The translations under genes and the position numbers were made by a program. The notes under the pieces were generated by a model. That model made no database searches and had not been told where the DNA came from. It saw only the letters and a list, made by a program, of their open reading frames with translations. A stretch of 31,463 nucleotides of DNA from a virus. Shown here piece by piece: positions 17 to 31,463 of the stretch. Position 1 is the stretch's first letter. Every line of letters begins with the position of its first letter. The stretch spans positions 1 through 31,463 of IMG/VR virus record IMGVR_UViG_3300047546_001528; one strand, given 5' to 3'.

Positions 17-45
17 ATTATAACATGGATTCAGGGTGTCTAATA
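17..45 (-). promoter_or_regulatory. Leftward promoter P0 (weak -35, 11-bp repeats upstream)
   Basis: On the minus strand a perfect TATAAT (17-22) is followed by CAGTACATA, the same downstream sequence as three other promoters in this region. At a 17-bp spacing the -35 position reads TATTAG, far from TTGACA, and it lies inside the last of four 11-bp repeats (40-83). This suggests a promoter that depends on a protein bound to the repeats. It would drive a gene beyond the left edge. Confidence 0.7.
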
Positions 46-83
46 TGATAAATACCTGATAAATACCTGATATTTACCTGATA
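40..83 (-). repeat. Four tandem 11-bp repeats upstream of P0
   Basis: Read on the minus strand, the array is TATCAGGTAAA, TATCAGGTATT, TATCAGGTATT, TATCATATTAG with no gaps. The 11-bp period puts every copy on one face of the helix. The same family of units lies directly upstream of three other leftward promoters (372-404, 709-752, 1512-1533), so this is a likely operator or activator site rather than a chance repeat. Confidence 0.85.
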
Positions 84-87
84 CGTA

Positions 88-112
88 GGGGGTAGGGGGT
101 CCCCCTACCCCC
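88..112. repeat. G-rich palindrome a (12-bp arms)
   Basis: GGGGGTAGGGGG, a single T, then its exact reverse complement. An identical 25-nt palindrome recurs at 420-444 and 1270-1294, and left-arm-only versions occur at 768-781 and 1549-1560. Here it sits between the 3' end of the 52-aa gene (140-298) and the P0 repeats, so it may end the leftward transcript. There is no U-tract, so a classic intrinsic terminator is not certain. Confidence 0.8.
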
Positions 113-139
113 AGGTGTAAAGACTTTTGCTGACTACTG

Positions 140-298
140 CTACTTTTCGCCGTGGGCAATCTTTAACAGTTCGGCAAATTCCTTTTCAAACTTGGCTTGA
201 GCCTTTGGAGACAAAGCCATTGGCTTGAAGTGAGCGGGCTTCTTTTGGAACTTACCCGCTTGGAATCCAGAGGGATGACGATGAATCTTCTTGTGCAT
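140..298 (-). CDS. Small basic hypothetical protein (52 aa)
   Basis: Translating the minus strand from ATG at 298 gives 52 residues beginning MHKKIHRHPSGFQAGKFQ and ending in TAG at 140. GGAG lies eight bases upstream of the ATG. The first half is rich in Lys, His and Pro, and the second half (residues 30-50) looks like a short amphipathic helix. A TTGACA-N17-TATAAT promoter lies about 40 bp upstream (339-367), so this is a stand-alone single-gene unit. I do not recognise the family. Small basic proteins made from strong promoters are often early phage host-takeover factors, but that is inference. Confidence 0.72.
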   Translation of the reverse strand: MHKKIHRHPSGFQAGKFQKKPAHFKPMALSPKAQAKFEKEFAELLKIAHGEK

Positions 299-338
299 AT
301 TTGATGCTCCTTGAGTCTGCTATCTATCTTATATACTG

Positions 339-367
339 ATTATAACCTGTGTCAGCAACAATGTCAA
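339..367 (-). promoter_or_regulatory. Leftward promoter P1 (TTGACA-N17-TATAAT)
   Basis: Perfect -35 (362-367) and -10 (339-344) hexamers with a 17-bp spacer on the minus strand, followed by CAGTATATA. Three 11-bp repeats (372-404) abut it upstream. It drives the 52-aa gene at 140-298; the start site is expected near 332. Confidence 0.9.
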
Positions 368-371
368 GGGA

Positions 372-404
372 GTTTTATGAGAAATTCATGAGGATTACAT
401 GAGA
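372..404 (-). repeat. Three tandem 11-bp repeats upstream of P1
   Basis: Minus-strand units TCTCATGTAAT, CCTCATGAATT, TCTCATAAAAC. The last ends four bases before the -35 hexamer. The TCA core at unit positions 3-5 is shared by all 13 units of the family. Confidence 0.82.
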
Positions 405-419
405 AAGTGTTAGTGTGTA

Positions 420-466
420 GGGGGTAGGGGGTCCCCCTACCCCCAAGTGTAAAGTGTTTACACTTG
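420..466. repeat. G-rich palindrome b plus adjacent 10-bp hairpin
   Basis: 420-444 is an exact copy of the palindrome at 88-112. Sharing its edge, 444-453 and 457-466 form a second perfect stem (CAAGTGTAAA with a 3-nt loop). Both lie just after the stop codon of the 56-aa gene, in the direction of transcription, and would form a tandem structure at the transcript's 3' end. Confidence 0.75.
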
Positions 467-475
467 AGGTTGGTT

Positions 476-646
476 CTAGAAGTGGCGGACTTCCTTGAGA
501 ACCTCAACGCAGGACTGAACGATGCCGACGATAAACCGCCCGAACATACCGACCATGCGGAACAGAACGATGACTGCCTTGAGAACGAGCATGATGGGCA
601 ACATGAGAATCAGGGCGATGAGGCGGGTCACTTGTGATGAGTACAT
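476..646 (-). CDS. Small membrane peptide (56 aa)
   Basis: ATG at 646 on the minus strand, preceded by AAGGAG at seven bases, opens a 56-residue frame ending in TAG at 476. Residues 8-29 (LIALILMLPIMLVLKAVIVLF) are almost wholly hydrophobic, and residues 31-48 form a second, weaker hydrophobic stretch with Gly and Phe. Predicted: one or two membrane helices with a charged C-terminus (KEVRHF). It is the only gene of the unit driven by promoter P2 (676-704). No family recognised. A membrane-acting early peptide, for example in superinfection exclusion, would fit, but nothing shows it directly. The opposite-strand frame over the same bases has no ribosome site and looks spurious. Confidence 0.75.
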   Translation of the reverse strand: MYSSQVTRLIALILMLPIMLVLKAVIVLFRMVGMFGRFIVGIVQSCVEVLKEVRHF

Positions 647-675
647 TGACAACTCCTTAACTAACTTATGTACTG

Positions 676-704
676 ATTATAACCGGTTTTTGATTCGCTG
701 TCAA
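676..704 (-). promoter_or_regulatory. Leftward promoter P2 (TTGACA-N17-TATAAT)
   Basis: Perfect consensus hexamers (-35 at 699-704, -10 at 676-681) with a 17-bp spacer, followed by the conserved CAGTACATA. Four 11-bp repeats (709-752) lie immediately upstream. It drives the 56-aa membrane peptide. Confidence 0.9.
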
Positions 705-708
705 GAGA

Positions 709-752
709 GTTTTATGAGAATTACCTGATAATTTCATGATACGCACATGAGA
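709..752 (-). repeat. Four tandem 11-bp repeats upstream of P2
   Basis: Minus-strand units TCTCATGTGCG, TATCATGAAAT, TATCAGGTAAT, TCTCATAAAAC, gapless, ending four bases before the -35. They mix the TATCAGG form of P0 with the TCTCATG form of P1 and P3, which links all four arrays. A half copy of the G-rich palindrome (768-781) lies just upstream. Confidence 0.82.
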
Positions 753-787
753 AAGTGCCCTTGCGTAGGGGGGTAGGGGGGTGTCCC

Positions 788-1267
788 AGTCCTATTTTGA
801 ATTTTAGTTTTAAATTTTAAATTTTAATTTTAGGTTTAATTTTAGGTTTTTTTTATTTCTCGTTTAAAGTTTTATTTACAGTTTCCCACTTTTATTTGTG
901 ATTCTAAATAGTAACATTGATTCTGTATAGTTTCCTAAGTTAGATGCACAGTTGAAATTAGTTTTCAATTTGTACTTTTAATTTCAATCTGTATTGTAAT
1001 TCTACTTTTGAATAAAAAGCCGCACTGTGTTTATCTGGCGAGTAGTTTGTACCATACTTACTAGGCTATACAAGTATGTAGTAAAGTCTATACTCGATTT
1101 CTATTTTCAAATTTATGTTTTTGGATTGTGGATTTGGATTATATTGCGCCGCTGTTTTCATTTGAAATTAACTCGCCCGCTTTTTATTTATCTACGCTTC
1201 ACACAATTATACACATACTCAATACACATTAATACAATATACACCACATAAGTAAGTGACCAGTCAA
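788..1267. other. AT-rich stretch without a convincing gene
   Basis: No frame with a ribosome site is visible on either strand. 800-850 holds short tandem variants of AAAATTAAACCT (minus strand). Similar T-rich near-repeats containing TTTATGTTTTTG occur near 1110 and 1325. The 74-codon plus-strand frame at 1027-1251 starts with GTG, lacks a Shine-Dalgarno sequence and has the composition of random AT-rich DNA. It may be an untranslated leader or a melting region, but nothing specific supports either. Confidence 0.5.
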
Positions 1268-1269
1268 TA

Positions 1270-1294
1270 GGGGGTAGGGGGTCCCCCTACCCCC
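1270..1294. repeat. G-rich palindrome c (12-bp arms)
   Basis: Third exact copy of the 25-nt palindrome. It lies about 80 bp beyond the end of the tRNA-like RNA (1372-1472) in the direction of transcription. Unlike copies a and b, it is not followed by 11-bp repeats and a promoter. Confidence 0.8.
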
Positions 1295-1371
1295 ACGAAC
1301 ACGCTAGCCTATTTTGATTTTTGAATTTATGTTTTTGAATTTAATTTTGATTTTATTTTGAGATTTCGTTC

Positions 1372-1472
1372 AAAAAAGAAATAGAGTAGGGATTCGAACC
1401 CTCGCATTGAACCTTGCCTCGACTTTGAGTTGGTGAGTCGCCTTGACTGCTTACTCATCTCTATTTCTTTAT
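1372..1472 (-). ncRNA. tRNA-like small RNA (class II size, anticodon arm not canonical)
   Basis: On the minus strand, AATAGAG (1459-1465) pairs with CTCTATT (1380-1386), and pairing extends outward to 12 bp (AAAGAAATAGAG with CTCTATTTCTTT). Next to the 3' strand is a good T-arm, AGGG-TTCGAAT-CCCT. The 86-nt core has the length of a class II (Leu/Ser) tRNA. GAGT and ACTC could form a D-stem with a large loop. The anticodon arm fails: the loop CTCAAAG (anticodon CAA, Leu) has no 5-bp stem, and the best alternative stem (CGACT/AGTCG) closes an 11-nt loop. No CCA is encoded. Promoter P3 would start transcription at about the first base of the long stem, and six U residues follow its other strand. 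It could be a decayed tRNA or a tRNA mimic. Confidence 0.55.
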
Positions 1473-1478
1473 ATACTG

Positions 1479-1507
1479 ATTATAGCACGGCTACAGAGTG
1501 CTGTCAA
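1479..1507 (-). promoter_or_regulatory. Leftward promoter P3 (TTGACA-N17-TATAAT)
   Basis: Perfect -35 (1502-1507) and -10 (1479-1484) with a 17-bp spacer, followed by CAGTATATA. The expected start near 1472 coincides with the 5' end of the tRNA-like RNA, so there is essentially no leader. Confidence 0.9.
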
Positions 1508-1511
1508 GTAA

Positions 1512-1533
1512 GTTTTATGAGAATCACATGAGA
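1512..1533 (-). repeat. Two tandem 11-bp repeats upstream of P3
   Basis: Minus-strand units TCTCATGTGAT and TCTCATAAAAC, ending four bases before the -35 as at P1 and P2. This is the shortest array of the family. A half palindrome (1549-1560) lies upstream. Confidence 0.78.
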
Positions 1534-1611
1534 AAGTGCTGAGACGTAGGGGGTAGGGGGTCTCCTTGCCTGAAAATACCCGCCGATTATTTCTGGAATA
1601 ATCTCAAAATC

Positions 1612-2896: not shown

Positions 2897-3264
2897 TATA
2901 ATCGCTCCTTAATATAATCTATTAAAAATGTAGCCAGAATAAACGCAAAGAAAATGCTGCCTACCTCGCCCACGACAAAACTCGTAGTATCGAAGTAGGC
3001 TAAGAGAAACCCTGCGAGAATGGTATACCGTGAAAAGAACAACGGTACCTCCAGAAGAAATATTGGGTCATTCCGGTAATCCGGTAGCCAGTCATACACT
3101 AGGGAGTAGTAAACCGAGACCCCTGTAGCAAGTATGGTAAGGAGTAGGATGCCGTAAGTTGGTAAGCCTCCTCCGTAGACGTAAGTATAAAGGTTATTGA
3201 TAAATCGCTCGTATTTCGTATTACTAAATCTTGCGCTTGCCCACTGAGTCCAGTTTCGTTCCAT
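2896..3264 (-). CDS. Membrane protein with three predicted helices (122 aa)
   Basis: Hydrophobic segments at about residues 36-56 (GILLLTILATGVSVYYSLVY), 68-90 and 98-117, with a charged N-terminus (MERNWTQW) and a C-terminus ending in KERL. AGGA lies ten bases before the ATG. Its first 55 codons (166 bp) overlap the C-terminal part of the VanW gene in another frame. Because the first membrane helix lies within the overlap and a ribosome site precedes the ATG, I keep the long start, although a shorter start cannot be excluded. No family recognised. It may be an anchoring partner of the VanW protein, an inference from the overlap only. Confidence 0.55.
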   Translation of the reverse strand: MERNWTQWASARFSNTKYERFINNLYTYVYGGGLPTYGILLLTILATGVSVYYSLVYDWLPDYRNDPIFLLEVPLFFSRYTILAGFLLAYFDTTSFVVGEVGSIFFAFILATFLIDYIKERL

Positions 3265-3644
3265 ATAGATACATTGTCCTGCCTTTCTACCCCAAGTAAT
3301 GGGGTGCTATGTCTCACAAACGTTCTTTCAAGATTCAGATGCCTCGCAAGTTCCGCATAGCGTGATGCAAGGTCACACCAGCCCCCGCCGTAGATACCAT
3401 AGGCATATACGAGGGGGTACTGGTCAGGGTTACCGACTGTCTCATTGAACGACCATTCCTGTCCTGGCGGGATGGTTACCGTGGCGAGTACAGGAAGTAT
3501 TGGATTAATATTCTCGTCTATAATTGTGCCCTTTCGTAAGGGGCTTGCGTCTACCTCATACCGGCGGGGAAATATCCCCACGCTAAGTAGGAGAATGAAT
3601 AATATGTATACAGTCATTATGCCGGAGCGTGTAACTAAATCCAT
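3099..3644 (-). CDS. VanW-domain protein with N-terminal membrane anchor (181 aa)
   Basis: Residues 11-24 form a single hydrophobic segment (signal anchor or signal peptide). Residues 52-165 match the VanW family: PPGQEWSFNETVG, then GIYGGGWCDLASRYAELAR (the GGG-x-C core; Cys90), LNLERTFVRHS, DNVSIW and DLVIRNTSDLSITF. VanW proteins are envelope-associated, known from vancomycin-resistance clusters, and of uncertain biochemical function. An upstream in-frame ATG at 3680 has no ribosome site. The ATG at 3644 has a weak AGAAG, and the one at 3617 has none. The N-terminus overlaps the previous gene and the C-terminus overlaps the membrane-protein gene. A VanW protein in a phage suggests modification or masking of the host surface (inference). 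Confidence 0.72.
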   Translation of the reverse strand: MDLVTRSGIMTVYILFILLLSVGIFPRRYEVDASPLRKGTIIDENINPILPVLATVTIPPGQEWSFNETVGNPDQYPLVYAYGIYGGGWCDLASRYAELARHLNLERTFVRHSTPLLGVERQDNVSIWNETGLSGQAQDLVIRNTSDLSITFILTSTEEAYQLTASYSLPYLLQGSRFTTP

Positions 3645-3858
3645 ATTTCTTCTGAAGATGATTCCAGTATTTTTCTTCATCTGGTATTGTCACCGTGATA
3701 TAGATACGAAATATGATAAAACTCGTGTTACTGCTTGTGTCAATTTCCACAGGTACCAACGAAAGTTTTTGTAGTTCATTTCGTATCTTCCTTATCTTTT
3801 CGGGGGCGTCCACGTTTCTTACTGGGAGAAAGAGCGTAATACTGCTGTAACTCTTCAT
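3583..3858 (-). CDS. Hypothetical protein (91 aa) overlapping both neighbours
   Basis: ATG at 3858 has GGAG six bases upstream, giving MKSYSSITLFLPVRN and a mixed alpha/beta protein: strand, helix (EKIRKIRNELQKL), strand, strand (SFIIFRIYITVTI), helix (EKYWNHLQKKYG), an ACT- or ferredoxin-like alternation. The ATG at 3912 also has an AGGAG at nine bases, so a longer form with about 110 residues is possible. It overlaps the AT-hook gene upstream by at least 83 bp and the VanW gene downstream by up to 62 bp. No function recognised. Which start is used is uncertain. Confidence 0.5.
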   Translation of the reverse strand: MKSYSSITLFLPVRNVDAPEKIRKIRNELQKLSLVPVEIDTSSNTSFIIFRIYITVTIPDEEKYWNHLQKKYGFSYTLRHNDCIHIIHSPT

Positions 3859-8812: not shown

Positions 8813-11416
8813 TTACCTCACTGTAGTGTTACCTGCTGGTTTTGCAAGTACAGGTGTGATTGTTGGAGCAATCGCAGTTTTTCCACGGAGTGCATAGATA
8901 AAACAGAGATAACTCGCAAAAATGTGGTCATCATCCGATGCACCGACACCACGTTCATTCATAATATAATAGTGGTCATTACCAGTAATACGCTTTTGGC
9001 GAGTAAGTCTCTCAAGTTGACTTACACCCTCGGTGTCTATTTCAGAAAATAAGAGCGTACCCTCTGTGACCATTCGTGCGATTTCTTTCGAACCCCAACT
9101 GCGAAATACCTCAGTAAGTTCAGTATCGTCGTCTGTTCGACCAACTGACACACGCTCATTAAAAAGCACAGGAATGATTCTTTCAGCATATTTATAAAGT
9201 GTGTACTCCTCCCGACTACAGAGCGACTGGTATATACCAGCACCGCCACCACCGGCACCAACGTCAATTGCAATCTTTGTGGGATTGTAAAACTGCGTCA
9301 GGTAGTGGATAATTGCTTCCTGCTCAGGATAGTCAATTTTTGTAATTCGGTATCTTACCAAAGTAATGTATTTGTTATTTTTTGCTCCGACTACTTGTAT
9401 CACTGTTGGGTCTGAAAAACCAGTATCTATAGAAAAAATAACGTAATCATAACCAGTTATTTTATGTAATTTTAGTACATCCTTGAATTGTCTTCCTTTC
9501 AGTTTGTCGTTATTGGAGTAACGATAACTAAAGAAGTCAACTTGTTCAAGTGTAAACGCATCTCTTGGAATAACTTGGAATGATGCGCTTCCGTGACGAC
9601 CTAGCACTAATTGTTGAAAAATATCTTCTTCGATACCACCATATTTCCGCAGTGCATCATTCCAGTCATCCAGGGTAAAGTATGGATTATTGGGTGATGG
9701 TATGCGATACTTTTTGTACTTCGGGCGGCGAATATCTAAGTCATAGAGCGCACTATTGCGCAATCCATTTGGAACTCCGCAGTATATCTCTTGTATTTTA
9801 GGTTCCCATGTATTAAGTGTAGGTTGCAGCTGATTAAAGGCAGTCATGGGAAATAACTGCATCTCATCCCCAGCGATACGAGGAATATGTAAACCTACCA
9901 AGTTATTACTTTCTTTTGTACCTGCGATACGTGCATTGAAACGATGGTTTCTCGAGCCGAACTTAAAGTCAAGTGTTCCTTTCGAACGATTCACATTGTT
10001 ACCAAGAAAGTCTTTGAGCAGTGGGCTTGTGGTAAATTTTAACACAAGCCGGTCTAGTAGTGGCGTTAACTGATTTGAGTTAGGAGTCACTAATAACTGT
10101 TCCGACGTTTTTGGAAACTCTATGTCATTATTTACAATTTGATATGTAAGCAAGTCCTCAATAATCACCGAATTGTGTACAACAACATAATCTGAAATGT
10201 AGGTCTCATCAGTATAGACGTGAACGGCATACGTGGGCATATTGTAACTGCGGCTGTGTCGGCTAATAATTGGTTCCCAGCGGATATTGTCAGGTGGCTC
10301 GATGTTACTTAAATCAAGATTCACCTTAATTCCTGGGATATTAAACGTAGCCCAAAAACGAAGTGCATTTTCTTTGTCTAAGGTGGTGATTTCCCAAATA
10401 GAAAAATCGCCGCCATAGCCGTATGTCTTTTGCACAACATCTTTTGTCTTCTTACGTACCGTACTGATACCAAAGTACATCAGAACTTCTTGAAACTCTT
10501 TTGTAAAGTTTTCATTTGGTATTCGCAGAGATACCTGGTACCGGTCAAATGTAGCGTACTGGGCAAAGACCGCCTCTAGAAATACCTTAATGTTTTCAAG
10601 GCGTTGATTCTTAATGAAGTCTAGGTTCTGCCGCTTTCGCTCGTTCTTTGTTGTGTTAATACCACATTCTCGCCATAGTTGACGAATGTAGTGTCGAGTT
10701 TGCCCTGTTTTAATGCGGTCAAGGTAGTATCTTCCGTCTTCAATGCGTACCGTAAGGTACATATTCTTAGCAATAAACTCAAGTTCTTCAGCAATTTGTT
10801 TAAATCTGGGTTTTAAGCCCATATAGCCGACCACTTTAACATTGTTAAGAATATCATAACCCATCGCACGTAGCTCGAACCAAGAGAATGTATTATACAC
10901 ACAATGGTCAGTAGGTAACTGATTTGTAACTGCGATTAAGTCACCTATCTTTAAATCACCTGCCACAACAAAACCTCGTGGCGTAAGAATCGGATGATTA
11001 TAGGTACATTCAACTTCCTGTGTCTCGGTCTTGAATTTGTGAAGTTTAGTCCACTTATCTTTGGTAATTGTAGCCCGCCGCTGTCTGAACTTACCATCAG
11101 TTGTGTACGCATACGTAATAAAAGAATCTTTTTTAAGTAACTCTTTTATTGTTTTAAAACCTTCGGTTGTAAATATGCGTGCTGTCGTAGGCTGACATTT
11201 ACCAATAGAACGACCACCGGTAATAACAATATGTTTATTCTGGTCTGTAAGAATTTCTTTCTGGTAGGGTCTGTGCTTAAACTCATCAGAAGACCAGTTG
11301 TTTTTATTCATGTCTGCATTATTTGTTGAGCGCAAAAATTCACTAAACCACACAGGGTCTTCAATAATTTCGAGCAGGGCTAACTCTGAGTCATCAATTT
11401 TCTTCTGTAGAGCCAT
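8813..11416 (-). CDS. terL: Terminase large subunit with an in-frame intein (867 aa; 525 after splicing)
   Basis: The host protein has an ATPase and a nuclease domain. Walker A, GGRSIGK (67-73), is cut by the intein and is completed by Ser416. Walker B is RIAGDE (Asp517-Glu518). The RNase H-like nuclease carries Asp664 (FSIDTGFSDP), Asp718 (AIDVGAGGGG) and Asp828-830 (ASDDDHIFASY). The ATPase drives DNA into the capsid and the nuclease cuts concatemers, docked on the portal encoded next. The intein is described separately. It must splice for the P-loop to form, so packaging depends on splicing. The start overlaps the preceding small-subunit candidate by 23 bp. Confidence 0.93.
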   Translation of the reverse strand: MALQKKIDDSELALLEIIEDPVWFSEFLRSTNNADMNKNNWSSDEFKHRPYQKEILTDQNKHIVITGGRSIGKCQPTTARIFTTEGFKTIKELLKKDSFITYAYTTDGKFRQRRATITKDKWTKLHKFKTETQEVECTYNHPILTPRGFVVAGDLKIGDLIAVTNQLPTDHCVYNTFSWFELRAMGYDILNNVKVVGYMGLKPRFKQIAEELEFIAKNMYLTVRIEDGRYYLDRIKTGQTRHYIRQLWRECGINTTKNERKRQNLDFIKNQRLENIKVFLEAVFAQYATFDRYQVSLRIPNENFTKEFQEVLMYFGISTVRKKTKDVVQKTYGYGGDFSIWEITTLDKENALRFWATFNIPGIKVNLDLSNIEPPDNIRWEPIISRHSRSYNMPTYAVHVYTDETYISDYVVVHNSVIIEDLLTYQIVNNDIEFPKTSEQLLVTPNSNQLTPLLDRLVLKFTTSPLLKDFLGNNVNRSKGTLDFKFGSRNHRFNARIAGTKESNNLVGLHIPRIAGDEMQLFPMTAFNQLQPTLNTWEPKIQEIYCGVPNGLRNSALYDLDIRRPKYKKYRIPSPNNPYFTLDDWNDALRKYGGIEEDIFQQLVLGRHGSASFQVIPRDAFTLEQVDFFSYRYSNNDKLKGRQFKDVLKLHKITGYDYVIFSIDTGFSDPTVIQVVGAKNNKYITLVRYRITKIDYPEQEAIIHYLTQFYNPTKIAIDVGAGGGGAGIYQSLCSREEYTLYKYAERIIPVLFNERVSVGRTDDDTELTEVFRSWGSKEIARMVTEGTLLFSEIDTEGVSQLERLTRQKRITGNDHYYIMNERGVGASDDDHIFASYLCFIYALRGKTAIAPTITPVLAKPAGNTTVR
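10172..11197 (-). mobile_element. Intein in TerL (342 aa, class 1, decayed LAGLIDADG domain)
   Basis: Residues 74-415 of the TerL frame. Block A begins with nucleophile Cys1 (CQPTTARIFT). Block B is ECTYNHPILTPRG with the TxxH-type His. The terminal blocks read YAVHVYTDETYISDYVVVHN with His-Asn at the end, and the +1 extein residue is Ser. The middle holds an endonuclease-like segment: FLEAVFAQYATF, then QVSLRIPNENFTKEFQEVLMYFGI, which resembles the second half of a DOD (LAGLIDADG) homing nuclease, but its Asp-containing motif is lost. The insertion point is inside the P-loop, a common intein site in ATPases. Confidence 0.9.
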
Positions 11417-12763: not shown

Positions 12764-13447
12764 TCAACAGGATTCGTTATTTCCTGCCTGTTTTCTATGT
12801 TTATTTTTTAAGTATACGTAATGACGACGGCTTATTCCAAACTTACTTACTGCGTCTTTACAAGAATACTTAAGAATATCCTCAGCATTATAACTGCGTT
12901 TTGTATTAGGAATATTCATAGATTTTTTTAATCTATAATAATGCGTTTTACTTATGCTATACTTAGTGTTTGCTTCTTTAAAGGTTAATTTAACAATCTC
13001 TTCAGAATTATACGTTTCTTGAGAATTCCAGTAATCTTTTGACACCTTACTGAACAATTCTCTATTTTCTAAAGAGTGCTTCATTCCTTTAGCTGGAGTT
13101 TTACCAACTCTTGCTTTTTTTAACTTATTTTTCCAATCGGACACATCATTTATTGGAAAATAAGATTCACCACCATCAAGTATATTATAAGTATCACCAA
13201 GTAAATCCCGATAATATTTAACATAGTATTTCTCAGACGCTAAAAGGTCGTCTTCACTCTCGCAAGTTTTTAATATAGAAATAGAAAAATTTTCAAAGCC
13301 ATATTTACGCATCGCATCATATAGTTTTAATTTTTTTCCTCTTTTACTAGAACTCTTGTGTGACTTCCAGCGAACTTTTAAACTAGACCGAGTAATACCT
13401 ACATAAACAGAACCAGTTAACTCATTCCTAACTAAATAAACATACAT
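12764..13447 (-). CDS. GIY-YIG intron homing endonuclease (227 aa)
   Basis: GIY-YIG domain at residues 1-90: MYVYLVRNELTGSVYVGITR supplies both tyrosine motifs, then VRWKSH (Arg27) and SEKYYVKYYR (Glu72, the metal ligand). A NUMOD3-like DNA-binding segment follows (ARVGKTPAKGMKHSLENREL, about 125-145). Then come two related units of about 35 residues (NSEEIVKLTFKEANTKYSIS... and NAEDILKYSCKDAVSKFGIS...), each a short helix-turn-helix ending in HYYRLKK/HYVYLKN. I chose the ATG at 13447, preceded by AAGG; a longer frame runs back into the intron core. It ends 7 bp before the 3' splice site. Its expected role is to cut intronless nrdJ genes. Confidence 0.88.
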   Translation of the reverse strand: MYVYLVRNELTGSVYVGITRSSLKVRWKSHKSSSKRGKKLKLYDAMRKYGFENFSISILKTCESEDDLLASEKYYVKYYRDLLGDTYNILDGGESYFPINDVSDWKNKLKKARVGKTPAKGMKHSLENRELFSKVSKDYWNSQETYNSEEIVKLTFKEANTKYSISKTHYYRLKKSMNIPNTKRSYNAEDILKYSCKDAVSKFGISRRHYVYLKNKHRKQAGNNESC

Positions 13448-13582
13448 AACTACCTTACCTTTCGATAAGGGTCGGACTATATCATCACATTTCTGTGCTG
13501 TGCGCTTCGAGTACACTTGTACTCTACGACTTACGTCTAGTCTCTGAACCCCATCAGTGATGTGCTAAAGTACCATAAGGTA

Positions 13583-13611
13583 CTCTATTATTATACACTA
13601 TTTTTGTGTCA
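13583..13611 (-). promoter_or_regulatory. Late promoter L2 (29-bp motif) inside the intron
   Basis: Minus strand TGACACAAAAATAG, TG, TATAAT (13590-13595), AATAGAG. It lies 84 bp inside the intron and about 135 bp before the endonuclease ATG, with a short hairpin (AGTACC-TTAT-GGTACT) at the predicted start. It gives the endonuclease expression independent of nrdJ. Confidence 0.78.
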
Positions 13612-13694
13612 CTGACAAGGATGCTGATTAGCATATCTTTATGACTTAGCTTTCCAGCAGTTCACACAGTTTAAAGACCGCCAAACTTTAGTAA

Positions 13695-15205
13695 ACGGTC
13701 GTAACTAGGAGAGGTGTAGGAATACGAAGAACACTGGCATACTCTTGAGCCGCATTATTCGCAATCTTATTCAACTCCTGCAAGAACATCGCCAATGGAT
13801 ATTGCAACAAACTACCGTCTGAGTTTATAATTGGAACAAGTGCATCGACATCAGTTGAGTCAACTCCACACGCATCCAAAGCCTCCACATAGCCAGTGAA
13901 TGAAACGCCAGTCAAGCGGTCCCGCTTCTGCACTTCATCCCAATGGGGAAGTTCAAGTGTTACCGTGGTCATACGAAGACCAATACGAGTAGCCAAGATG
14001 ATTGCATTTGCCAACGCATTAAAGTCAATTTTACCGTGCTTAACGTAACCAGCCATGTTAATTTCTGAGAGATTACACACGCCATTGTCGGCAAGGAGAA
14101 TCTCCGCACATGGGTTGGTACCTGCATAGTATGGGCGACGTTTAGATGCGGCTTCAGCATTAATAAAACCTGGCTCACCATTGTTCGCAATACGTTCAAA
14201 AATATCCTTGAGTTGTTCTCGGGTTGGCTTCTTTTGGAAGTAAACCGAGTTATTACTCATAGAGCGATAACGGAACTCTTCTTTCTTTGGGTCACTCCAA
14301 AGATTGGTCTTGGCATCAAGAATATTATCATCGGTAATATCGAACAAGGTAATCTCGCTTGAACGACGAACACCGCCAACAACTACGCATGAGCCAATAA
14401 TATTCATAATGTCCATCGCCTGCACAGTGTTCAACTGGGCATTACCACGACACATGACACGGTGAATCTGCTTGAACATATCACGCAGTGCGGTATGACC
14501 TGAAGCACGACCACCAAATGTTTTAAGAATCTCACCTTGTTGGCGAACATTGTCGTAGTTAATCATAATCGACTCAACATACTTGTCAGAGCGCATTGTC
14601 TGGAAGTAAGCGTCTAACGCACTAACCCAGCCCTCTTTCGAGTCACCAACAATAATATAAACACCGCCGGAATCTTCATAAACTTGAGTTTCTTCAATAC
14701 GCTGGTCAGGCTTCTTTGGATGATACGGCTTGTGTGCCACAACTACATTGGTTTTAATCGCAGGTAGTCGATAAACATCTTGCGGAAGTACACGGAAACC
14801 AACCCCTGTACCAAGCATCATCAAATAAAAGGCATCAACAAACGCATCAAATGAATCAACTACAGTAAATGAACAATTGAAATTTGACAGGGGGAACTTG
14901 CGTGCGGCTTCCGTTCCGCCAATCCACATAGTGCGACCCGCAGTAAACAGGCGCAAATTAAACATCTCGTCAAAGAAATGCTCTGCCTCTTGACGAAGCA
15001 GAGTCATATCATTTGGACCAGAGTGAAGACTCATAGAATATTCTACGACACGACGACACGTTTCTTTCCAGTGTTCTCGGCGACCCAATTCAGGAAGAAA
15101 CCGTGAATAGGTGCGAAGATAAACAAACTGCCCAAGAATGGAATTCCATTCGGGGTTATCATTATACTTACTCAAAAACTCGTCGCTCAAAAAACTACTC
15201 GGCAT
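13695..15205 (-). CDS. nrdJ: Class II ribonucleotide reductase, exon 1 (N-terminal part)
   Basis: Converts ribonucleoside triphosphates to deoxyribonucleotides with adenosylcobalamin. With the ATG at 15205 (AAGGAG nine bases upstream; an in-frame ATG at 15226 lies before this ribosome site), the residues match the Lactobacillus enzyme in order and spacing: Cys111 (FNCSF; Cys119), Asn364, Cys366, Glu368 in NPCAEI (406, 408, 410) and Cys377 (419). Cys366 would form the thiyl radical and Cys111/Cys377 the disulfide. Other landmarks: LGTGVGFRV, SCVVVGGVRRSSEI and the GFINAEA loop. The uninterrupted frame ends in the intron at 13688. Overlaps the upstream gene by 11 bp. Confidence 0.93.
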
Positions 15206-15515
15206 CAGTAGCATCTCCTTTGTCATTCTCTGACTCTTGTTGTAAAATACTTGTAAAAGAAAAATCGGTCAAAATCTCACAAACTTCTTTAGAGCACAAT
15301 TCTCGTTCTACAGTAAGAATCATCTTCTCTTGTAGATACTTTATGAACTTAGTAGAATCGGCTTCATAACAAATAGCCCGCAGACTATGTGTACTAAATT
15401 CTTCTGTATCTTGCGCACTACAGGTGAACTGAACAACATACTCATAAAAATCGTCGCCGTCAACTCGTGAGCAGGTAAATGCGACTACAGAAAATCTATA
15501 CTTACCTGGTTTCAT
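15195..15515 (-). CDS. Hypothetical protein (106 aa) between nrdJ and mazG-like genes
   Basis: Soluble, beta-rich first half (YRFSVVAFTCSRVDGDDFYEYVVQFTC), helical middle (STKFIKYLQEKMILTV) and acidic tail (QESENDKGDATDAE). Cys residues at several places do not form a clear CxxC site. The ATG at 15515 overlaps the MazG stop, and the tail overlaps the nrdJ start. No family recognised. Its position suggests a partner in nucleotide metabolism, but nothing in the protein shows it. Confidence 0.6.
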   Translation of the reverse strand: MKPGKYRFSVVAFTCSRVDGDDFYEYVVQFTCSAQDTEEFSTHSLRAICYEADSTKFIKYLQEKMILTVERELCSKEVCEILTDFSFTSILQQESENDKGDATDAE

Positions 15516-16437: not shown

Positions 16438-16481
16438 TCTAGTGGGTAATAATATACCCTATTAATTTGTCAGAGGTACCT

Positions 16482-16853
16482 ATGAGTCAACTATGTTGTG
16501 TGTGTGACAACTTCGCCAAAAGAGGAAGTAGATTCTGCGCTGATTGTAAAATAATCTATTCCAGTGTTAATAAAGAACCGTGGTTTGAAGAATTATGTAA
16601 TTTAATGAAACGTCAGCGCAAAATAGACGATATTGAAAAATATTCCATTTATGATAGTAACACAAAATCGCTCCAAAGTAAATACCAGAGAAGACGAGGA
16701 AGACCAACAACTTCTAAAGTTGTTCGTGAACTGGTAATGAGTTTGAAAGAAACTTCACCTAATGCGTCTATTCGTGATATTGAGTCATCTTGTGTTTCTG
16801 CGGGTGTAATTGTATCAAGAGAAACCATTCGCAGAATTTTGACACAAAAATAG
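16482..16853 (+). CDS. Zinc-finger / AT-hook / HTH DNA-binding protein (123 aa), candidate late regulator
   Basis: Three DNA-binding parts in 123 residues: a zinc ribbon (Cys5 or Cys6, Cys8, then Cys19, Cys22 in CVCDNFAKRGSRFCADC), a basic AT-hook RRRGRP (70-75), and a C-terminal helix-turn-helix (NASIRDIESSCVSAGVIVSRETIRRIL, 95-120) like the N-terminal HTH of transposases. I use ATG 16482, with GAGGT before it; an in-frame TTG at 16467 lacks a ribosome site. It is the only gene between the rightward early promoter and the late promoter, and its last codons (TTGACACAAAAATAG) are part of the late promoter. This suggests it is the early-made activator or autoregulator of late transcription (inference). 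Confidence 0.75.
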   Translation: MSQLCCVCDNFAKRGSRFCADCKIIYSSVNKEPWFEELCNLMKRQRKIDDIEKYSIYDSNTKSLQSKYQRRRGRPTTSKVVRELVMSLKETSPNASIRDIESSCVSAGVIVSRETIRRILTQK

Positions 16854-29566: not shown

Positions 29567-29962
29567 ATGGCAACGATTAGAATTAGCGGGTATCTTGCGG
29601 ATGATACAACTGCTTTTAGTTATGAAATCCGCCCAAATGATATTCAGAGTAATATTAAAAACTACACTGAAGATATTCATGGACTTGATGGAACTTTCCA
29701 CAGATTTCATAGAGCGTACAAGCATAACTTTAAGTTGACATTTAACAACGTACAATCTGGTATTGCTAATACTCTCTATACAATATTTACTACACCGAAT
29801 CAAATGGTTTTTCAAAATATAGACGGGATTAATTACACTGTGATGACAGATGCAGATTCTTTCTCATCAACCATAGCTGGGAATTCTGTAGCCTTACGTA
29901 AAGACTCAAACGGAGAAAGAATTAAACTCTACACAGTGTCACTTAATTTGGTAGAAAAATGA
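29567..29962 (+). CDS. Tail-tip protein after the tape measure (131 aa), distal-tail candidate
   Basis: Follows the tape measure by 8 bp with an AGGAG. Beta-rich: IRISGYLADDTTAFSYEIRP, RFHRAYKHNFKLTFNN, NQMVFQNIDGINYTVMTD, RIKLYTVSLNLVEK. In siphoviruses this position is usually the distal tail protein; the size is on the small side for that. Its stop overlaps the start of the next gene (ATGA). Confidence 0.55.
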   Translation: MATIRISGYLADDTTAFSYEIRPNDIQSNIKNYTEDIHGLDGTFHRFHRAYKHNFKLTFNNVQSGIANTLYTIFTTPNQMVFQNIDGINYTVMTDADSFSSTIAGNSVALRKDSNGERIKLYTVSLNLVEK

Positions 29963-31463
29963 ACACAATACAGAATAAAGTATACATAACTAATAAAAGT
30001 AACGTAGAGATTACAATTCCGCAATCGTATGTTACAGTTCTTGACGGAAGTTATAGTCTAGATTTTGAATCAACTCAGCAATTTGCACTGGGGCTTGCAC
30101 AACCACAAACGTGTAAAATAACATTAGTCAAACCAAAGTCAGGGCAGTTTTCTGCCCTGACAACCATACTAAACAGAGACTATGACTGGCGTATGATGAA
30201 TGTTACCCTGACTACATCTGTTAATGGTGGTGCAGAGTCTGTGACATTCAAAGGCTTGACTTTCCAACGAAGCGAGAGCATGAATACGGTCTCCTTTATT
30301 TGTCGTGGTTTTTTAGACTTGTTAAACATCACAAAAATACAGACTCCGCTGTTTCGTAATAGAAAAGTGGCTACTTCTATCGCAGATATACCTAATGGCT
30401 CAACAAATGCGCAGATTTATACACTACTATCTAACCAGAATCCCACAACAATAAGTGGTTCTTCCGTAGGTATCATTAATAGCATACTTTGGCTACTTGG
30501 TGGTAGACCATCAAAATATTCCACGCTGTACACACAGCAGTACACTCCAGTATCTGGAGAATATCCTAAATTTTACTTTGACTGTGATAATTCAGTTATT
30601 AACCCAGAATGGGCATGGTTTAACTACGAAAACTTAACTAGTGATTTATCACAACTTTGTAAAGCCGCCGGTGGTATTTTGAAACAAGACGCAGATGGCA
30701 TTGTACGTTTTTCTAATGTATATTCCATAAGAAAAGCGTGGAATGGTTTTACAATTACTGATTCAAACTGCACAGAAATGCAACTTGGTGAATCAGAAAC
30801 CGAGCCTTATTCAAAAATAGTTATGACATTCACGCCACGTTACCTAACTGGTAGTAAAGAAATCTATAAACAAAATCTAGAAGAATTTATTCAACCTGGG
30901 CAGAGTGTTGAACGTGAGATACAATTTAGTCAGCCAGTATACTCGTTGCTTAACAAAACAACATCCGGACAACTATCGGACAGTATTGTTAATAGTCAGT
31001 TTAACTCGGTAAAAGACTTTATTTCCGCCCTTGATGTTAAGGGTACAAAGAGAATTATTCAAGCAAGAATAAAACCATATAGTGGTCTTTATATCCCAAA
31101 ATATGTAGCATCTGGAGAACTAGGTAACTTTACTATTGTTCAAAATACAAATGCTGTTCCTAGTCAGTCAATTAACCTTATTGTGTCTAACTCTGGGCTA
31201 GCAGGTTCACCCACATTATTTATTGCGGATGTAACTCTGTTCGGAAGAACACTTGAAGCTGCAAAAACCGAGAATTATATATCAGATATTAATCAATATC
31301 CATCTGTATCTGGATTTAAACAATTGAGTCTTCCTAATAATCCATATGTTCAAAATAAGGATGACGCCAAGCGTGTTGTTGACTTAACAAAATACCTTAT
31401 GCAAACACCCCGACTGAAAATCACTGTTAACGAAGTCCCATACACTAGTCAAATAAAACTAGG
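29959..31463 (+). CDS. Tail tip / hub protein, partial (runs off the right edge)
   Basis: ATG at 29959 inside the stop of the previous gene. The frame is open for all 501 complete codons to the window end. Begins MNTIQNKVYITNKSNVEITI. The segment LCKAAGGILKQDADGIVRFSN (near residues 234-254) is the kind of motif (helix, GG, D-DG-xxF) seen in siphovirus tail-hub and minor tail proteins. The rest is beta-rich with scattered aromatic residues. It would sit at the tail tip and may contact the host. Confidence 0.7.
   Translation, partial: MNTIQNKVYITNKSNVEITIPQSYVTVLDGSYSLDFESTQQFALGLAQPQTCKITLVKPKSGQFSALTTILNRDYDWRMMNVTLTTSVNGGAESVTFKGLTFQRSESMNTVSFICRGFLDLLNITKIQTPLFRNRKVATSIADIPNGSTNAQIYTLLSNQNPTTISGSSVGIINSILWLLGGRPSKYSTLYTQQYTPVSGEYPKFYFDCDNSVINPEWAWFNYENLTSDLSQLCKAAGGILKQDADGIVRFSNVYSIRKAWNGFTITDSNCTEMQLGESETEPYSKIVMTFTPRYLTGSKEIYKQNLEEFIQPGQSVEREIQFSQPVYSLLNKTTSGQLSDSIVNSQFNSVKDFISALDVKGTKRIIQARIKPYSGLYIPKYVASGELGNFTIVQNTNAVPSQSINLIVSNSGLAGSPTLFIADVTLFGRTLEAAKTENYISDINQYPSVSGFKQLSLPNNPYVQNKDDAKRVVDLTKYLMQTPRLKITVNEVPYTSQIKL

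Follow-up and report, generated by a model that had tools for sequence, protein, structure and literature searches.

Locus organisation

The window analysed here is the viral contig IMGVR_UViG_3300047546_001528 at its full length of 31,463 bases, and the subject of this report is a set of 11-bp direct-repeat arrays that it carries on the minus strand. Four leftward promoters (P0, P1, P2 and P3) lie in the first 1.6 kb, and each is headed by a gapless row of 11-bp units. Positions of array units below are counted from the start of the -10 hexamer.

17..22, minus strand: P0 -10 hexamer TATAAT; the gene lies past the contig end
40..83, minus strand: P0 array, four units at 83-73, 72-62, 61-51 and 50-40 (TATCAGGTAAA TATCAGGTATT TATCAGGTATT TATCATATTAG), starting at -61, -50, -39 and -28
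140..298, minus strand: predicted small open reading frame (ORF) driven by P1, 52 amino acids, no Pfam match
339..367, minus strand: P1 core promoter, TTGACA at 367-362, 17-bp spacer, TATAAT at 344-339
372..404, minus strand: P1 array, three units at 404-394, 393-383 and 382-372 (TCTCATGTAAT CCTCATGAATT TCTCATAAAAC), starting at -60, -49 and -38
476..652, minus strand: predicted small hydrophobic ORF driven by P2, 58 amino acids
676..704, minus strand: P2 core promoter, TTGACA at 704-699, 17-bp spacer, TATAAT at 681-676
709..752, minus strand: P2 array, four units at 752-742, 741-731, 730-720 and 719-709 (TCTCATGTGCG TATCATGAAAT TATCAGGTAAT TCTCATAAAAC), starting at -71, -60, -49 and -38
1378..1467, minus strand: predicted tRNA-like RNA driven by P3, weak tRNA-Sec-like match (21 bits, under the Rfam gathering score)
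1479..1507, minus strand: P3 core promoter, TTGACA at 1507-1502, 17-bp spacer, TATAAT at 1484-1479
1512..1544, minus strand: P3 array, three units at 1544-1534, 1533-1523 and 1522-1512 (TCTCAGCACTT TCTCATGTGAT TCTCATAAAAC), starting at -60, -49 and -38

Read directly on the minus strand, the four rows comprise 14 in-phase units (4+3+4+3) with the consensus T(A/C)TCA(T/G)NTAAT. The first-pass annotation had described gapless units with a TCA core in 11-bp phase, and this description holds for every unit; its count of 13 (4, 3, 4 and 2) is corrected to 14 by the third unit at P3. The P1, P2 and P3 cores each match the sigma70 consensus at 12 of 12 positions (TTGACA-17-TATAAT), and at P2 a fifth half-match (TCTCTTGACAG) extends into the -35 element. 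P0 has no usable -35, as had been noted: the expected position matches at 3/6 and is covered by the last P0 unit. The P0 array is also picked up by TRF with a score of 62.

On its own, the loose motif occurs in the window no more often than in shuffled sequence (38 versus 38.5 matches), and the claim therefore rests on the arrangement of the units. The search proposed in the first-pass annotation, for the repeat at 11-bp spacing, returns 13 two-unit sites at exactly 11 bp, compared with a mean of 2.0 and a maximum of 4 in 20 Markov shuffles, and 0-5 matches at each of the other spacings from 8 to 14 bp. The window arrays are confirmed as real by these counts.

Arrays in related and unrelated phages

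Coat protein and ribonucleotide reductase matches among viral contigs identified relatives of the window, with no isolated phage among them. One of the source metagenomes, 3300044712, appears in a paper on rice-root plaque (PMC10734482). Judged by ribonucleotide reductase, the closest phages that have a name belong to the Thermus phage P23-45 group (about 44% identity). Isolated-phage records contain no relative of the window coat protein, and the portal protein weakly resembles that of phage G.

Among the related contigs, G002 and G003 each carry about 20 array promoters, almost all of which point leftward and precede small genes, and many arrays are also present in G011, G013 and G017. Two-unit sites exceed their shuffle means in G002 (24 versus 4.0), G013 (26 versus 3.2), G017 (30 versus 5.8) and G011 (15 versus 3.6). 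Arrays are not above chance in G001, which overlaps the window and extends rightwards, in G007 or in the distant G012.

The arrays are also found in phages with little in common with the window group: at least four lineages carry them without, or nearly without, detectable protein similarity to one another. In the contigs G014 and G015 (52.5% G+C, from one metagenome and perhaps fragments of a single phage) there are 30 and 7 two-unit sites, respectively, with a shuffle mean of 1.2 for G014; the only proteins that they have in common with the window group are a family-A DNA polymerase and, by a weak match, a nuclease. Against the window group, tblastx gives no match for two further loci, L117 (59% G+C) and L114; L117 has a P2-type promoter with the array TATCAGGTAAATATCAGGTAATTCTCAT, and L114 has a three-unit array. 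L100 and L114 come from the same metagenome (3300020042), in which contigs with and without similarity to the window group occur side by side.

The arrays are mostly intergenic, and in G002, G013, G014 and G017 most sit no more than 200 bases before a gene start on the same strand, where gene starts were taken from a home-made gene caller and some targets are RNAs. Homologues of the 58-amino-acid ORF driven by P2 are likewise placed behind arrays in G002. Many array-preceded genes of G002 have no detected homologue in other phages, or only one or two, and because so many of these targets are poorly conserved the arrays appear to mark an accessory gene block.

Promoter geometry

Across phages, the start of the unit nearest the promoter clusters at -28 (31 cases), -16 (22) and -38 (14), positions that depend on a -10 element picked as the best hexamer in a window, with a small bonus for a -35 match. 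The window group uses registers -39/-28 and -49/-38, and G014 uses register -16. An extended -10 (TGnTATAAT or similar) is usual in promoters of the -28 class and mostly lacking in those of G014.

Register is linked to the presence of a -35 element. A TTGACA match (5/6 or better with a 16-18-bp spacer) is present in 2/59 arrays with the proximal unit at -16 to -29, compared with 15/26 arrays whose units start at -37 or further upstream (Fisher p ~4e-8). The two exceptions, window P2 and one promoter in G002, arise where TCTCTTGACA is itself scored as a unit. Because the array lies on one helical face, takes the place of the -35 at near registers and adjoins it at distant ones, the layout appears to be the geometry of a DNA-bound activator and not that of a roadblock repressor. 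Two or more head-to-tail 11-bp direct repeats, at a fixed placement near the -35 that they replace or abut, are what is expected of a site for the OmpR/PhoB family.

Of the repeat number and phase whose conservation the first-pass annotation treated as decisive, phase is conserved, as is register, and unit number varies from 2 to 5. Its reading of a multi-copy site ahead of small genes is well supported by the recurrence at a few fixed registers in relatives and unrelated phages, with the amendment that P3 drives a tRNA-like RNA and not a small protein gene.

Search for a phage-encoded regulator

The Trans_reg_C domain (PF00486) is absent from all 12 phage records searched at E<=1, and 12 of 14 control genomes are positive in the same search. 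An OmpR-type regulator encoded by the phages was rejected on this result. Pfam and PHROGs surveys of G002 display no obvious regulator among the families shown, and neither of two candidate proteins co-varies with the arrays, a comparison that the first-pass annotation had proposed. The occurrence of the sites in unrelated phages, together with the lack of an OmpR-type domain in the 12 phage records, makes the host the most likely source of the protein predicted to bind the arrays.

The same repeat in cellular genomes

Scanning a genome collection for TCTCATSTWATTCTCATNT gave 45 loci spread over many phyla, most of them probably matches by chance. These loci hold 60 pairs at 11-bp spacing, 45 of which are the seeds, versus 1-7 at other spacings. 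PhoB-like genes lie near several of them (6 matches within 1.5 kb over 118 kb; none in 41 kb of control loci), and at L133, L138 and L170 the distance between the first unit and a -10-like hexamer is exactly +27, which is also the value in G014. Searching 336 Actinomycetota genomes for two units followed by a -10 at the G014-like distance gave 4 matches in 2 genomes, with 1 match in the control.

Of these matches, those at L234 and L231 are promoters of response-regulator genes of the OmpR/PhoB family, with register -27/-16, and the match at L232 is the promoter of an ABC exporter directly behind the regulator-kinase pair of L234. At L173, in Patescibacteria, the array precedes htrA, which is followed by a regulator and a kinase. 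In cells, the phage-type repeat accordingly precedes OmpR/PhoB-type regulator genes or their operon, with two independent autopromoters (L231 and L234). At L231, L232 and L234 the gene begins 12 nt away from the first base of the -10 hexamer, and the array-controlled mRNAs are probably leaderless.

The regulators of L133/L234, L231, L173 and L138 have the same recognition helix, SN(I/V)(V/I)ETY(I/V)(K/R)YLR(K/Q)KL, and the latter three are 61-67% identical to the L133/L234 regulator, so that the repeat co-occurs with one response-regulator clade. The models closest to this ETY-helix clade are CopR/CusR and RppA, with matches below their cut-offs, and PhoP, PrrA and BasR are among its relatives with solved structures. 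Regulator homologues in Chloroflexota have DVY or similar in the helix and lie at loci without arrays, and 400 genomes of that phylum gave 6 site matches versus 0 in the control. MprA of C. glutamicum, which also controls htrA, was rejected as a counterpart because its motif (TKTTAAGAAM) is different.

None of three phyla tried as the host was supported. Chloroflexota, hinted at by a Thr/Pro-rich lipoprotein in G014, has the other recognition helix, no arrays at its regulator loci and no coat protein match; Actinomycetota likewise has no coat protein match; and Patescibacteria has no excess of sites. The coat protein comparison covered 400 Chloroflexota and 396 Actinomycetota genomes, and its negative result proves little alone.

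Interpretation

The arrays are probably sites for a host response regulator of the OmpR/PhoB type that acts as an activator of sigma70-type promoters. A winged-helix regulator supplied by the host would bind head-to-tail to TCTCAT-N5 direct repeats (variant TATCAG-N5), with one protomer per 11 bp and all protomers on one face of the helix, and would thereby activate transcription of the phage accessory gene and RNA block. At promoters without a -35 (P0, register -28 in relatives and -16 in G014) the regulator would stand in for that element; at those with a consensus TTGACA (P1-P3, register -38 to -40) it would sit directly upstream of it. The first-pass annotation had allowed either an activator or a repressor, and the activator is favoured by arrays that replace or precede the -35 and leave the core promoter uncovered, with binding itself as a prediction from the sequence.

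Several observations weigh against a host regulator of this kind. No regulator from a particular host can be paired with these phages, and the phage contigs are possibly incomplete; a divergent DNA-binding protein encoded by the phages would also escape detection. The genome G025 came to light by way of one of its arrays, which leaves L231 and L234 as the only independent cases; these two agree with each other. The control search in Actinomycetota also returned a match, and Patescibacteria yielded 15 genomes with a match versus about 13 control matches. The cellular registers resemble that of G014 and not those of the window group. Finally, the perfect consensus promoters P1-P3 should not need an activator; at these promoters the arrays may boost transcription, or their effect may be confined to infected cells.

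Of the alternatives, the one that survives best, though it is unlikely, is a non-OmpR activator encoded by the phage, such as a small polymerising protein like BldC or RemA, that would turn on a class of middle or early genes. The arrays are phage-wide and concentrated in one gene block, conserved helix-turn-helix (HTH) proteins are present in the group (G002 29820-30191 and window 16467-16853), and BldC provides a precedent for head-to-tail multimers on direct repeats of varying number (PMC5859096). The BldC repeat is, however, a 9-bp AATTNNNN(C), and the arrays, at 11 bp with a TCTCAT core, are not sites of that type. The candidate proteins also fail to follow the arrays: the zinc-ribbon/HTH protein is present in G007, which has no two-unit sites, and a 120-amino-acid protein (G002 61508-61870) was not found in the array-bearing G011. 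The near-absence of proteins common to G014/G015 and the window group, already described, is a further difficulty.

It is less probable again that the arrays are repressor sites through which a protein of host or phage origin would hold the small genes silent. Repeated operators are a feature of phage immunity systems, and P1-P3, with their perfect consensus, would be strong unaided. At these and other TTGACA promoters, however, the array ends upstream of the -35 and leaves the core uncovered, and in the class without TTGACA it occupies the place of the -35, so that the promoter to be repressed would hardly be able to fire.

We consider it very improbable that RNA polymerase itself reads the arrays, whether as a UP-element-like site for the C-terminal domain of the alpha subunit (alpha-CTD), as phased curvature or through an unusual sigma factor. 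The alpha-CTD binds phased upstream sites near -40 to -60, and the arrays of P1-P3 lie in this zone; against this, the conserved core is TCTCAT and not an A/T tract, up to five units are present, units also occur inside the -35/-10 spacer (register -16 in G014), and cellular copies of the repeat precede response-regulator genes. Recombination or replication repeats with no role in transcription (iterons or a ParR-like centromere) can be set aside almost completely: some plasmid ParR systems do use 11-bp direct repeats, but the arrays in the phages are numerous and separate, each keeps a set distance to its -10 hexamer, and most of them precede the start of a gene.

If a host response regulator is the binding protein, a broader proposal can be entertained, and we hold it tentatively, as possible but not probable. 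Several unrelated lineages would, each independently, have placed most of an accessory or early block (about 15-25 promoters) under a single two-component regulator of the host, with the programme gated by the signal of the host kinase and with repeat number and register setting promoter strength. Phages borrow the host RNA polymerase; here, host signal transduction would also set the infection programme, across phages that otherwise share almost nothing. The arrays form a natural series of promoters that vary in repeat number, register and -35 strength, which is useful for questions of activator distance, and the repeat could serve as a mark linking uncultured phages to a host lineage.

Associated features and other gene content

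A G/C palindrome accompanies the arrays.

85..112, no strand assigned: near-perfect G/C palindrome GGGGGTAGGGGG/CCCCCTACCCCC, intergenic, upstream of the P0 array

Copies or remnants occur near 417-445, 764-785, 1266-1295 and 1546-1563. They usually lie directly upstream of arrays, and similar strings precede arrays in G002 and L100. They are not typical terminators, because no U-run follows them.

The tRNA-like RNA driven by P3 combines an acceptor stem of 9 bp with a T-arm and a UCA-containing loop (anticodon-like for UGA). It was not called in an ARAGORN run, and TGA is an ordinary stop in the window's phage group. In G002, ORF-free stretches behind array promoters (L013, 13640-14840, minus strand) hold repeated tRNA-like elements with TTCGAATCC arms and a conserved GATTCTAGA loop, which neither ARAGORN nor Rfam calls as tRNA. 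G012 has its own recurrent promoter form on the plus strand, roughly GCTGGTAA-N8-TTAGAATATGTTATAAT (L093-L094), with no TCTCAT arrays.

Elsewhere in the window, all on the minus strand, the ribonucleotide reductase gene (12764-15226) is split by a group I intron (Rfam RF00028, 13453-13704) whose ORF resembles, by eye, a GIY-YIG homing endonuclease, and an 867-amino-acid terminase-like ORF (8813-11416) has an apparent intein, also judged by eye. A PnrA/Bmp-type substrate-binding lipoprotein (Pfam PF02608, 4555-5712) and a VanW-like protein (3099-3680), the latter match confirmed in G002, are unusual phage cargo. An HNH-like ORF (1766-2236) has no relatives among the viral contigs. In G014, QueC-, QueD-, QueE- and FolE-like proteins recognised by eye (L125 13295-14927 and L126 3098-4378) suggest a deazaguanine DNA modification pathway.

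Comparison with known systems

The first-pass annotation knew of no standard phage operator of this form, but a model exists: two to five 11-bp direct repeats near the -35 are the standard layout for the OmpR/PhoB family and the SARPs. Direct repeats with 11 bp from centre to centre are the usual site of the OmpR/PhoB family. The PhoB pho box of E. coli pstS consists of two such repeats, with the core CTGTCAT compared with TCTCAT in the phage arrays. In E. coli genome records the repeats upstream of pstS start at about -50, -39, -28 and -17 if TATTTT, which we take to be the pstS -10, is used as the reference.

The sites of E. coli ArcA resemble the window arrays in consisting of 11-bp direct repeats, commonly 2-5 per site (PMC3798270), but have another sequence and serve a cellular regulon. 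In the SARP AfsR, a dimer of OmpR-type domains binds two 11-bp repeats over the -35/-10 spacer of a weak promoter; the 22-bp box is centred at -29.5 from the start site, with the upstream repeat at -40 to -30 (PMC10936776). In the frame used here this corresponds to unit starts of about -28/-17. SARPs differ in being Streptomyces regulators with other cores, and the phages (12 records) lack such a domain.

The phage polymerases of Thermus phage P23-45 transcribe its early genes from other motifs (PMC10770324). The window promoters appear sigma70-like and carry arrays, unlike those early promoters, and the 12/12 consensus match at P1-P3 speaks against phage polymerase promoters of the P23-45 type.

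The closest phage precedent, in which phage genes carry sites for a host regulator of the OmpR/PhoB family, is provided by the cyanophages S-PM2d and P-SSM2. These have pho boxes for the host PhoBR, some of which are bound by host PhoB in electrophoretic mobility shift assays, although predicted cyanophage pho boxes are often not functional (PMC10976474). The predicted cyanophage boxes are few, weak and tied to the phosphate response, whereas the phages described here have up to about 20 promoters with two to five near-perfect units in several lineages. The kind of site is thus known from PhoB, ArcA, the SARPs and cyanophage pho boxes; its scale and its spread across unrelated phages look new.

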